Positions 4,698 through 58,594 of a stretch of DNA of 64,000 bases are shown in pieces. The stretch is from the NCBI RefSeq assembly GCF_018398875.1, contig NZ_JAGWDK010000003.1, positions 124,001-188,000 of the forward strand, read 5' to 3'. The position numbers and the translations under genes were made by a program. The DNA comes from Bradyrhizobium sp. sGM-13. Lineage in GTDB: Bacteria > Pseudomonadota > Alphaproteobacteria > Rhizobiales > Xanthobacteraceae. Below the pieces are notes generated by a model. That model saw nothing but the letters and a program-made list of their open reading frames with translations, ran no database searches and was not told the origin of the DNA. Position 1 is the first letter of the stretch, and each line of letters starts with the position of its first letter.

Positions 4698-4784
4698 TCA
4701 CGCGTAGGCCGCCATCTTCTTGATCTCAGGCGCGAGCACATCTTCGGCCGTGTCGAGATGGTAACGTGCTAAACGTTCATCCAT
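4698..4784 (-). pseudogene. 28-codon C-terminal relic
   Basis: The minus strand reads from an ATG at 4784 to a TGA at 4698 and ends DTAEDVLAPEIKKMAAYA; the frame stays open and protein-like a little further upstream (RDARL). It is homologous to the relic at 2936-3000. There is no ribosome binding site, so it is more likely the tail of a deleted gene than a microprotein. The family is not recognised. Confidence 0.35.
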
Positions 4785-4835
4785 CAGCCGCGCGTCGCGC
4801 GACCGTGTTGTCCCCGCGCGGGGTTCTTGCTGAAA

Positions 4836-4994
4836 CTAGCGACGGCCTTTGCCGCCCCGACGAGGATCCTTGCCCGCGCCTTGACGACCGGCGCGAACTA
4901 CCTTCTCGGCACCTCTCGCGTGGTGCCCACCTCGATTGCCGCCGTGTTTCCCAATCCGCTTGCCCGGCTCTGCGGTTGCTTTCGTTTTGGCCAT
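4836..4994 (-). CDS. Small basic glycine-rich protein, 52 aa
   Basis: An ATG at 4994 opens a 52-codon frame ending TAG at 4836. The product starts MAKTKATAEPGKRIGKHGG and is rich in glycine, lysine and arginine (ending DPRRGGKGRR), so it is strongly basic and probably disordered, possibly nucleic-acid binding. It lies 42 bases downstream of the 63-aa gene on the same strand and probably shares its EcfG-type promoter. The ribosome binding site is weak (AAGAG about 8 bases upstream). Its composition differs from the frames on the opposite strand. No family is recognised. Confidence 0.5.
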   Translation of the reverse strand: MAKTKATAEPGKRIGKHGGNRGGHHARGAEKVVRAGRQGAGKDPRRGGKGRR

Positions 4995-5036
4995 GAATCA
5001 GCTCTTGGTGTCGGTGATTGGCGTCAGCTCTTTACG

Positions 5037-5228
5037 TCAGCTCTTGGCGCTGGAATTTTCGTTCTGCCGATCCTCCTTGATGATCGGACCTTTCGCAGCC
5101 TTGTTTCCGCCGCCCCATTGCTGAGCCTTCCGGGTTGCGTCGCCGCCCTGATGCTGCGGCGCATTACCCTTCGTGTTCGGGCTGGCGCTTTCGCCCTTGT
5201 TGCGGGCGCGGTCGTCGCTTTGTGTCAT
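5037..5228 (-). CDS. Small hydrophilic Asn/Gln/Gly-rich protein, 63 aa
   Basis: The start is the ATG at 5228, six bases after a perfect AAGGAG (5235-5240); a second ATG at 5234 directly abuts it. An EcfG-type promoter (5257-5281) sits just upstream, giving a predicted leader of about 20 bases. The protein begins MTQSDDRARNKGESA, has no hydrophobic segment and is rich in Gly, Asn, Gln, Lys and Ser, resembling hydrophilin-type stress proteins. A longer frame reaching 5486 is an artefact running through the phosphatase gene. The gene call rests on promoter, leader and ribosome site agreeing. Function is unknown; desiccation or osmotic protection is inference. Confidence 0.7.
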   Translation of the reverse strand: MTQSDDRARNKGESASPNTKGNAPQHQGGDATRKAQQWGGGNKAAKGPIIKEDRQNENSSAKS

Positions 5229-5256
5229 CGCCATCTCCTTGCTCCGACCAAAAGGA

Positions 5257-5281
5257 AACGCGGAGTGATTGCCACCGTTCC
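5257..5281 (-). promoter_or_regulatory. EcfG-type (general stress) promoter, minus strand
   Basis: On the minus strand GGAAC (5277-5281) is followed by 16 bases and CGTT (5257-5260), an exact match to the GGAAC-N16/17-CGTT promoter known for EcfG sigma factors of Bradyrhizobium and other alphaproteobacteria. Transcription would start near 5250, about 20 bases before the 63-aa gene. Confidence 0.75.
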
Positions 5282-5283
5282 CA

Positions 5284-5309
5284 GGAACTCCCGCTTGGAA
5301 GAATTCGTT
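5284..5309 (+). promoter_or_regulatory. EcfG-type promoter, plus strand, divergent
   Basis: GGAAC (5284-5288), 17 bases, CGTT (5306-5309) is an exact EcfG-type promoter pointing at the HAD phosphatase. Its -35 element lies 2 bases from the -35 of the opposite promoter. The predicted start point, near 5316, coincides with the first ATG of the phosphatase, so the mRNA may be leaderless. Confidence 0.75.
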
Positions 5310-5315
5310 ATAGCT

Positions 5316-5768
5316 ATGATGAAAACCGCACCGAAAGACTGTTACGTGTTCGACATCGATGGGACACTTGCCGACGTGTCCCACCGGCTGCACCACATCG
5401 AGCGAAAACCAAAGAACTGGCGCGCATTTTTCGCAGCCAGCGCCGATGACAAAGCCATTGAGCACATCTGCGACCTGGCCCGGCATCTTTCCAAAGCCAA
5501 GCCGGTGGTCTTTGTGTCAGGCCGCTCGGATGAGGTGCGCGAAGAAACCGAAGACTGGCTCGAACGCGAAACAGGTCTGCGTGGGCCTTTGTACATGCGA
5601 GACCGCCGCGACCGCCGCCCGGACTACATCGTCAAGGCGGAGTTGCTGGACCGGCTTCAGGCTGACGGTTATCGGCCGATCATGGCCTTCGACGATCGCG
5701 ACCAGGTCGTGAAGATGTGGCGCGCAAAGGGTGTTCCATGCGCGCAAGTCGCAGAGGGAAATTTCTAA
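5316..5768 (+). CDS. HAD-family phosphatase, PNKP 3'-phosphatase-like
   Basis: The protein of about 150 aa has the HAD core: the nucleophile motif FDIDGTLAD near the N-terminus, motif II VFVSGRSDEVREE, a lysine in DYIVKAELL and the acidic motif MAFDDRDQVVKMWR near the C-terminus. This arrangement is that of the phosphatase domain of T4 polynucleotide kinase-like enzymes, which remove 3'-phosphates from nucleic acid ends, so a repair role is plausible. A longer frame from 4827 has no homology-like content and overlaps small genes on the other strand. ATGs at 5316 and 5319 lie directly at the predicted EcfG start point and lack a ribosome binding site. Confidence 0.8.
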   Translation: MMKTAPKDCYVFDIDGTLADVSHRLHHIERKPKNWRAFFAASADDKAIEHICDLARHLSKAKPVVFVSGRSDEVREETEDWLERETGLRGPLYMRDRRDRRPDYIVKAELLDRLQADGYRPIMAFDDRDQVVKMWRAKGVPCAQVAEGNF

Positions 5769-5787
5769 CGGAAGACGGAGTTGGCGC

Positions 5788-6078
5788 ATGCAGCGATCTT
5801 CGGACAGGGCCAAGATCGGCTCAGGACAAATCGTCCTGCTCATCGTACTTGGCGCTCTGCTTTTCCTCACCGGCGTGTGGGCCGCTTACGTCTGGAACGC
5901 AAGCAGCGACGTTCCGATGAGCGCGCACGGCTGGATCGCGCTTGGCCTAGGCACGTTCTTTTCGCTGCTGATCGGATGCGGCCTAATGGCGCTGATGTTC
6001 TTCAGCAGCCGAAGCGGTCACGACGAGGCCGCCAGTCCGCATTTCAAGGAGCGTCGCGAGGGCGAAGATCGGACGTGA
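5788..6078 (+). CDS. Small two-helix membrane protein, 96 aa
   Basis: The ATG at 5788 has a GGAG seven bases upstream; longer starts overlap the phosphatase. Two hydrophobic segments are clear (about residues 14-37, VLLIVLGALLFLTGVWAAYV, and 46-70, IALGLGTFFSLLIGCG), followed by a charged cytoplasmic-type tail (HFKERREGEDRT). The gene follows the HAD phosphatase by 19 bases on the same strand, so it probably shares the EcfG promoter. No family is recognised. Inner-membrane location is likely. Confidence 0.75.
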   Translation: MQRSSDRAKIGSGQIVLLIVLGALLFLTGVWAAYVWNASSDVPMSAHGWIALGLGTFFSLLIGCGLMALMFFSSRSGHDEAASPHFKERREGEDRT

Positions 6079-6113
6079 GTCTGATCGATCGAGACGTCCC
6101 GCCTTCTGCCGCT

Positions 6114-6608
6114 CTAAGCCGCCAGCGCATCCGGATTGACCTCACCCTTGGCGATATCGGTGAGCAGCGCATCGATCTCCTTCTCTTCCATCAGGCTCTC
6201 GTGCAGCGTCGCCTGGTCGTTGCGCAATTCCAACTGCCCGGCGAGCGCTGCGGCCGAGCCGTAGGCGGCGATCTCATAGTGCTCGAGCTTCTGGGCGGAT
6301 GCGATCAGGCCGGCATCGCGAAGATCATCGCCCTCCAGCATGCCGAGCATCTTCCGGGTCTCACGGATGAGCGCCTCCATGGCCTGGTCGACATGGGCTG
6401 TCGGGTCTGCGCCATGCTGGCGAAGGATGGCCACAAGGCGGTGCTTCTGCGTGACCGTCTCCGCATGATGGTCCACTAGCGCGTCCTTGAGCGCCGGGTG
6501 GGATGCAGCCGCCGCCATACGCAGCAGTGCTTCCGCAAGTTGGTCCTCGACGCTCACCAGTTCCTGCAGTTCGGCAATGTACATGTCCTTGAAATTCTTG
6601 ATCTCCAT
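6114..6608 (-). CDS. DUF892 (YciE/YciF-like) ferritin-like protein
   Basis: This 164-aa helical protein matches the DUF892/YciF family: N-terminal MYIAELQELVSVEDQLAEAL, central HHAETVTQKHRL, and LEHYEIAAYGSAAALAG with the Glu/His residues of a ferritin-like di-iron four-helix bundle. Family members are stress-induced and are regular members of general stress regulons in alphaproteobacteria. The start ATG has AAGGAG eight bases upstream. An exact EcfG-type promoter lies at 6730-6755, giving a leader of about 115 bases. The biochemical role of the family is not settled. Confidence 0.92.
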   Translation of the reverse strand: MEIKNFKDMYIAELQELVSVEDQLAEALLRMAAAASHPALKDALVDHHAETVTQKHRLVAILRQHGADPTAHVDQAMEALIRETRKMLGMLEGDDLRDAGLIASAQKLEHYEIAAYGSAAALAGQLELRNDQATLHESLMEEKEIDALLTDIAKGEVNPDALAA

Positions 6609-6729
6609 GGCGAACTCCTTCTCTCAGGATGCTGATGAGGCTTCCGGCAGCAGCGCTGCACCGTCTTTCGGAAGTAACCTGCACGAGCCGAGCAGCCTGT
6701 TTCGCGTTCGAGGCCTGCGATATCGTTCC

Positions 6730-6755
6730 AACGAGGCCACGGTGCATCTGGTTCC
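6730..6755 (-). promoter_or_regulatory. EcfG-type promoter of the DUF892 gene
   Basis: On the minus strand GGAAC (6751-6755), 17 bases and CGTT (6730-6733) match the EcfG consensus exactly. The only minus-strand gene downstream is the DUF892 gene starting at 6608. Predicted start point is near 6722. Confidence 0.7.
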
Positions 6756-6820
6756 GGTCCAAGACCTGATCGAAGAGACCCGATCGAAGAGGCCTGATCG
6801 AAGACCCAAGAGGTGCTGCG

Positions 6821-7009
6821 ATGACGGAATGGTACTTTGTCTGGGTGGAAGGCCTGCGAGGGCCTGCGCCGCAGAAATGGTCATCGGATGGACTTTGGGG
6901 GCAGGTCGGGCGTCAGGACGTCATCGTACGTTTTGCGCTGAGCGACGAGGAAGCGCACCTGCCGCTCGACGAACTGGCAAGGCGCCATCCCATTCCCGAC
7001 GGGAAATAG
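6821..7009 (+). CDS. Small hypothetical protein, 62 aa
   Basis: The ATG at 6821 has AAGAGG about 8 bases upstream. The product, beginning MTEWYFVWVEGLRGPAP, is aromatic-rich at the N-terminus, with an acidic middle (ALSDEEAHLPLDELARRH) and no membrane segment. I recall similar short proteins from rhizobia, none with a known function. It lies within the stress island but no EcfG-type promoter is visible just upstream. It is divergent from the DUF892 gene. Confidence 0.55.
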   Translation: MTEWYFVWVEGLRGPAPQKWSSDGLWGQVGRQDVIVRFALSDEEAHLPLDELARRHPIPDGK

Positions 7010-7315
7010 CCGATTGTGGCCTCCCCGTGTCGCCGATCGGCGGAACAATGGGTATTAAAGATGCCCTTCTGCGGAACATTGCGAATTTAATTTTGTTGCC
7101 GGCTTGAAGCGGCGCCAACAGGCACCACTGTCCCGACTTCAATTCGGCTTGCTTGCGGAATTGAAAGCGAAGCTGCGAGCCGGCGCGCGGCGCCGGTGGG
7201 GACGAGCGATCAGGATCCTACACGCTTGACGTTAATTCCCTCCGCAGAAGAGCCGCGCGCGGTCAAGGCCGTCGCGCGGTGCTCACCAACCAGAAGCCAA
7301 GTAAGGAGATCGTGC
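7010..7315. other. Long leader/intergenic region with promoter and hairpin
   Basis: This 306-base gap holds no gene. It contains an EcfG-like promoter (7073-7097) and a hairpin with an 8-bp perfect stem (TTCAATTC at 7138-7145, GAATTGAA at 7158-7165). If the promoter drives the 96-aa gene at 7316, its leader would exceed 200 bases and include the hairpin. Confidence 0.5.
7073..7097 (+). promoter_or_regulatory. Probable EcfG-type promoter (TGTT variant)
   Basis: GGAAC (7073-7077), 16 bases, TGTT (7094-7097): one mismatch to CGTT in the -10 tetramer. It points at the 96-aa gene at 7316. Support comes mainly from the exact promoters nearby. Confidence 0.45.
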
Positions 7316-57787: not shown

Positions 57788-57889
57788 GCGCTGCATCGGC
57801 CGCTGGTTCCGCAGAACTCCTACGCACAACGCCGTACCGGAACATCGCCCTACCCCACGCGTTGCCCGCGTGGATGAGGGAGTTTGCCG

Positions 57890-58594
57890 ATGCGCACATC
57901 AACCGCCTTTTTTGCGGGGGCCGGAACCGTGGTTGTTGCGGTCGCCGCCGGTCTTGGCGGTGGATATCTGGCCGCCAACATCGTCAGCCCGCCGACGCAT
58001 GTGATCTCGAAACTGGAACGCCGGATGTCAGCGGAGCCGATATCCGTCTCGACGGAGCCATCGGAGCCGGTGCCCCATCTCGCGGCGACGGTGGCCGCGG
58101 CCAATACCGTGCCCGCTCAGGAGCAGCCGCAAACGCAACCCCAACAGACCCAGCCACAGCCGCCAACGCCACCACAGCCGCAAACGGCGGCGGCAGCGCC
58201 GTCCGCTAATAATGCTTCCACCGAAGAGAAGACGGCCAATAACGCGGCGGCCGCTCAACCTGTACCGCCACCGCCGAAACCGTCGAAGCCCGCCGAACAG
58301 GCCAACGAAAAGACTGCTGCGCCGGAGAAGGCGGCTGCTCCCCAGGAGGCGTTTGCCAAGGCGCGTGATGCTGATCTCAAACGGGCTGCCGCCGAACAGC
58401 GGCGCGCCGAGCGGCGCCAGCGCTGGGCCGACAGGCGCCGCTTCCAGCAGCCCCGCGAGCACGACCTCGAGGCGGTCGAGACGCAGGTCCGGGAAGCAAC
58501 CGAGCCGCGGCGCATCATCATCCGCGAAGAAGCGTTCGCTGGGGAGCCGGCACGAATCGAAATGCCCCGGATCAGGTTGTTCGAACAGGATTGA
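57890..58594 (+). CDS. Membrane-anchored Pro/Ala/Gln-rich hypothetical protein
   Basis: An N-terminal hydrophobic helix (FFAGAGTVVVAVAAGLGGGYLAANIV) is followed by a low-complexity Gln/Pro/Ala stretch (about 75-150) and a charged Arg/Glu-rich C-terminal half (KRAAAEQRRAERRQRWADRR). It is probably anchored in the inner membrane with a disordered extended domain. ATG 57890 has GAGGGAG 8 bases upstream; the TTG two codons earlier is less likely. Function unknown. It shares the anchor-plus-linker plan of the preceding gene 100 bases upstream. Confidence 0.75.
   Translation: MRTSTAFFAGAGTVVVAVAAGLGGGYLAANIVSPPTHVISKLERRMSAEPISVSTEPSEPVPHLAATVAAANTVPAQEQPQTQPQQTQPQPPTPPQPQTAAAAPSANNASTEEKTANNAAAAQPVPPPPKPSKPAEQANEKTAAPEKAAAPQEAFAKARDADLKRAAAEQRRAERRQRWADRRRFQQPREHDLEAVETQVREATEPRRIIIREEAFAGEPARIEMPRIRLFEQD

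Follow-up and report, generated by a model that had tools for sequence, protein, structure and literature searches.

The window, by which we mean the whole stretch of 64,000 nt that was analysed, comes from a soil bacterium, probably of the genus Bradyrhizobium, and contains two exact matches to the EcfG promoter pattern (-35 GGAAC, -10 CGTT, spacer 16-17 nt) placed back to back on opposite strands between divergent genes. In the leftward predicted promoter (5257-5281, minus strand) GGAAC occupies 5281-5277 and CGTT 5260-5257, with a 16-nt spacer, and in the rightward one (5284-5309, plus strand), the weaker of the pair, GGAAC lies at 5284-5288 and CGTT at 5306-5309, with a 17-nt spacer. The dinucleotide CA alone separates the -35 boxes GTTCC (5277-5281) and GGAAC (5284-5288), which together make up the perfect 12-bp inverted repeat GTTCCCAGGAAC (5277-5288). 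Coordinates, spacers and two-base gap were all given correctly in an earlier, sequence-only reading of this DNA. That reading also judged the spacing between each site and its start codon to be right, which holds for the minus site, with CGTT 28 nt upstream of ATG 5228, but is doubtful for the plus site, where CGTT ends at 5309, 6 nt before ATG 5316 and 9 nt before ATG 5319. Transcription starting near 5316 on the plus strand would thus yield a leaderless mRNA.

The leftward gene (5037-5228, minus strand, ribosome site AAGGAG at 5240-5235) encodes a 63-aa protein with 12.7% Gly and a GRAVY of -1.67, for which AlphaFold gave a mean pLDDT of 55 with an alignment of 17 rows. It had been described as hydrophilic and disordered; the hydrophilicity is borne out by composition, and the low confidence of the model indicates that the protein is probably disordered. 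Hydrophilin-like proteins are rich in Gly and strongly hydrophilic, and the 63-aa protein combines these properties with the apparent lack of a stable fold. Searches of Pfam and NCBIfam assigned it to no family; 52 relatives were found by sequence. The gene is present in 3/97 genus genomes (in one of which it carries a TGA in frame) and in the relative G197, and among 397 genomes of the order a homologue occurs in one other genus, with no exact motif upstream. Another 42 nt behind it lies a 52-aa basic, Gly-rich ORF (4836-4994, minus strand), found also in the B. retamae and G197 loci, which the sequence-only reading overlooked and which the minus unit would include.

To the right, a stand-alone PNKP-type phosphatase of 150 aa is encoded at 5316-5768 (plus strand, from ATG 5316 or 5319). 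Its earlier designation as PNKP-like is supported by membership in the phosphatase-domain family (113.9 bits against the curated HAD_PNKP cut-off of 27.6), and the HAD catalytic residues D13, D15, R70 and D126 are invariant in 22 rows. The phosphatase fold is itself a prediction. No kinase family exceeded threshold in a search for a 5'-kinase domain, and a complete polynucleotide kinase-phosphatase was rejected given the 150-aa length and missing kinase domain. As judged from sequence, RNA ends are as possible a substrate as DNA ends, and the proposed role in DNA repair would be a guess. The plus unit would further include a 96-aa predicted membrane protein (5788-6078, plus strand, GRAVY 0.3) starting 19 nt behind the phosphatase, likewise overlooked before.

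A DUF892 ferritin-like protein gene follows (6114-6608, minus strand; PF05974, 1.9e-40), and 121 nt before it lies a third predicted EcfG promoter, an exact GGAAC-N17-CGTT (6730-6755, minus strand). Divergent from this gene is a 62-aa ORF (6821-7009, plus strand), which adjoins DUF892 in all nine loci L107-L115 and matched no family in Pfam or NCBIfam. The exact N17 site was retained in 9/9 DUF892 orthologues of at least 87% identity, which is better evidence than the pair itself that selection can keep N17. Below 87% identity (8 loci, with L121 left out of the site count), an exact N17 site was present in one (L116) and no exact site in six.

In Alphaproteobacteria the genes for PhyR, NepR and an ECF sigma factor usually stand side by side as the general stress locus. 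One NepR match exceeded the cut-off in the genome studied. Its neighbours are a gene of the PhyR family (5.3e-109) on one side and one for an ECF sigma factor on the other, the latter taking the name EcfG from this neighbourhood; with that naming, PhyR, NepR and EcfG occur within one genome. A Bradyrhizobium EcfG paper of 2009 by Gourion is reportedly the source of the consensus for this genus.

Across the 8.31-Mb genome, exact N16/N17 matches (188) were about as frequent as the reversed pattern (195), so that a single motif is no more than chance would give. Broken down by spacing, N16 accounted for 121 (188 minus 67) and N17 for 67, against 217 for N18-21, or 54 per spacing. N16 is thereby 2.2-fold in excess over background (Poisson p 4e-15) and N17 just 1.24-fold (Poisson p 0.05). 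Position was assessed for 100 of the 188 sites (77 N16, 23 N17) with their surrounding stretches, a site being called start-proximal when it lay outside called genes and within 200 nt of a start according to a codon-usage gene caller written for the analysis. Start-proximal were 42/77 N16 and 5/23 N17 sites, compared with 5.7% of positions drawn at random from these stretches; the N17 fraction exceeds the latter (binomial p 0.009). Control spacings gave 2/11 (N12-14) and 3/9 (N20-22) and the reversed pattern 0/5, and by these counts N16 stands out by position whereas N17 does not. Neither site of the 5257-5309 pair was classed as start-proximal by the gene caller, because both frames remain open across the promoters. 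A Pfam search with the proteins behind 41 of the 47 start-proximal sites, plus both genes of the pair, returned PRC-barrel (2), DUF3072 (2), alpha-amylase, ferritin-like, CBS, phasin and other families, a set that, on sequence grounds, fits a stress regulon.

The window itself holds four exact motifs, against a mean of 1.14 over 100 shuffles, two of which reached four. The fourth is an N16 site at 57839-57863 (plus strand), 26 nt upstream of a gene at 57890-58594, and is a predicted further EcfG target. A second close divergent pair in the same genome (L034, 8 bp apart) was dropped, as its open frames overlap and the gene starts are unclear.

The pair as such is rare: the exact pattern, with its two sites back to back around a 2-bp centre, was found in 4/265 genus genomes and its control in none. 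Three of the four, namely the genome studied, G056 and G197, carry it at the same locus, G056 and Bradyrhizobium retamae Ro19 (NZ_LLYA01000156.1) being counted as one relative. The fourth, G063, has it at a different locus (L017, 1501-1552), the sole other back-to-back pair in the 265 genomes, where the rightward side faces a DUF3175 gene. B. retamae and G197 share the gene order 52-aa, 63-aa, phosphatase, 96-aa, DUF892, 62-aa, and both retain the pair and the DUF892 site with altered spacers. In an alignment of the three close genomes, counted by eye, substitutions fell in 10/87 intergenic columns and 0/18 element columns, a difference (p 0.085) whose weight is limited by their close kinship. 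Together with the phyR-nepR-ECF sigma region and the start-proximal positions marked by N16 motifs, retention of all three sites in two relatives supports the EcfG-type control that had been suggested. In G197 (L014) there are further exact N16 sites at 2813 (minus) and 3200 (plus), each upstream of a small hydrophilic ORF, and the stress cluster would accordingly be larger there.

Homologues of the 96-aa gene occur in 107/195 genus genomes, and 28 of 30 loci were compared, the one studied and that of B. retamae being left out. Four close orthologues (at least 86% identity; G086, G051, G038, G049) stand without the phosphatase, and three of these have an exact N16 site within 400 nt upstream, where chance would give 0.0045 per 400 nt. 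Two of these three have a small ORF between site and 96-aa gene (311 nt). For the rightward unit this is better evidence than the comparison of the three close genomes, and the unit therefore appears to be under EcfG with a first gene that varies, in the present genome the phosphatase. EcfG control of the 96-aa family throughout was rejected, since an exact site precedes just 2/24 homologues below 86% identity.

The phosphatase gene is rare in the genus and likely phage-type, both of which had been overlooked. Full-length copies are present in 3/265 genus genomes (one with an in-frame TAG), alongside two partial matches, and in five other genera among 397 genomes of the order. In plasmids and isolated phages, relatives of the phosphatase (77 and 3257 records) were of less than 60% identity only, whereas metagenomic phosphatases reach 75-91%; none of the plasmids searched for the whole cluster holds 80% of it. 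A quick tree of 72 rows grouped the clade of the window, unstarred, with that of the metagenome-assembled locus L007, whereas a careful tree of 46 rows set the two apart and rejected a single clade of all 19 viral rows (p 0.017). With the trees read as unrooted, a phage-to-host direction is no more than possible. In G149 (L015, 1501-1617) a 39-residue phosphatase remnant with 72% identity suggests gene loss. A broad link between phosphatase and EcfG was rejected: the five other-genus loci and L007 all lack the exact motif, and none of 53 viral loci had it in 250 nt of upstream sequence. L007 carries a one-mismatch GGCAC-N16-CGTT (626-650), seen by eye and given little weight; 38 nt further on begins a hydrophilic ORF of 62 aa, behind which comes the phosphatase.

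Our preferred reading, with a probability of about 0.7, is that 5257-5309 are back-to-back EcfG promoters driving the 63-aa/52-aa unit to the left and, probably as a leaderless mRNA, the phosphatase/96-aa unit to the right, EcfG control being likely on the left and somewhat less likely on the right. The right side is where a rival has some purchase, since the minus site alone could be an EcfG promoter and the plus match accidental, with the phosphatase made from another promoter. The plus GGAAC would then belong to a Shine-Dalgarno-like element, AGGAA (5283-5287), that serves a TTG at 5295 as in-frame start codon. N17 is hardly above background, the plus site is just 6 nt from ATG 5316, AGGAA lies 7 nt upstream of the TTG, and one 167-aa metagenomic record (P0001) starts still further upstream. 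However, the TTG is CTG in G197, most aligned relatives start no earlier than residue 2 of the ATG frame, a search for a sigma-70-type site in 4700-7200 found none, and an exact N16 site precedes the 96-aa unit in 3/4 relatives without the phosphatase. We consider this explanation unlikely, yet worth keeping in mind.

That the two matches arose by chance, with the genes outside the general stress regulon, is improbable: single exact motifs are indeed as common as the reversed pattern and the relatedness of the genomes weakens the conservation test, but the absence of the control pair from 265 genomes, the abundance and start-proximal position of N16 and the 9/9 retention at DUF892 speak against coincidence. 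Still harder to credit is that GTTCCCAGGAAC serves to bind some other regulator, its promoter resemblance being secondary. A perfect inverted repeat between divergent genes would suit such a role, but the two -35 boxes account for the whole repeat, each followed by a correctly spaced CGTT in three genomes, and LexA-type sites (GAACN7GAAC or GTTCN7GTTC) were sought in 5001-5500 and not found.

If the sites are back-to-back EcfG promoters, stress would release EcfG from NepR, and EcfG-polymerase would bind to a single half of the palindrome formed by both -35 boxes, with predicted starts at about 5250 (minus) and 5316 (plus). Since these lie 66 bp apart, and given the footprint of RNA polymerase, two polymerases would overlap and any one DNA copy would be transcribed in a single direction at a given moment, the leftward and rightward outputs rising together across the population. 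The phosphatase would strip the 3'-phosphate (or 2',3'-cyclic phosphate) that breakage under stress leaves on nucleic-acid ends, and may have arrived from a phage-type source, landing behind the EcfG promoter and ahead of the 96-aa gene. The resulting picture, of a phage-type 3'-phosphatase domesticated as a general-stress gene between an EcfG promoter and the gene of a stress membrane protein, and of a palindromic double -35, shared with the promoter of a disordered stress protein, acting as a one-polymerase competitive switch that couples protein protection to end healing, is tentative and somewhat doubtful. A phage-type 3'-end phosphatase under stress control would add end healing to EcfG regulons and show an accessory gene joining the general stress response via a unit already under an EcfG promoter. 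The pair also offers a compact test case for whether back-to-back ECF promoters exclude each other.

No literature link between EcfG and polynucleotide kinase was found in open-access papers; in one candidate (PMC5869019) the polynucleotide kinase is, in the excerpt available, a laboratory reagent. In B. diazoefficiens over 100 genes are under EcfG control according to the excerpted text of PMC8092242. Excerpts likewise list Topoisomerase IB as an EcfG target in S. melonis (PMC6599016), and a 3'-phosphatase could clean the ends remaining once a topoisomerase IB-like enzyme is removed.

Compared with PhyR-NepR-EcfG promoters in other Alphaproteobacteria, the motif matches the form GGAAC-N16-CGTT of Sphingopyxis granuli (PMC7083833) and falls within the form GGAAC-N17-20-GTT of Sphingomonas melonis (PMC6599016), as far as the excerpts of both papers go, but the present exact sites differ in having -35 boxes 2 bp apart and a rightward site that is probably leaderless. 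By analogy, precedents for its geometry may be seen in B. japonicum, with 320 gene starts 0-10 nt upstream of start codons (PMC4842269), and in S. melonis, where 2-10 nt separate EcfG motifs from coding starts (PMC6599016), both in excerpted passages. Unlike T4 polynucleotide kinase/phosphatase (Pnkp, PseT), with its 3'-phosphatase domain, the protein has 150 aa and no kinase domain, and whereas T4 Pnkp is a phage gene, this is a bacterial gene within a stress cluster. The closest functional parallel is end joining by Ku/LigD, since the excerpts place ku-ligD (PMC7083833) and Ku (PMC6599016) in EcfG regulons: there, as predicted here, nucleic-acid end repair is under a general stress sigma factor, but the enzyme at the present locus is a putative end-healing phosphatase and accessory.
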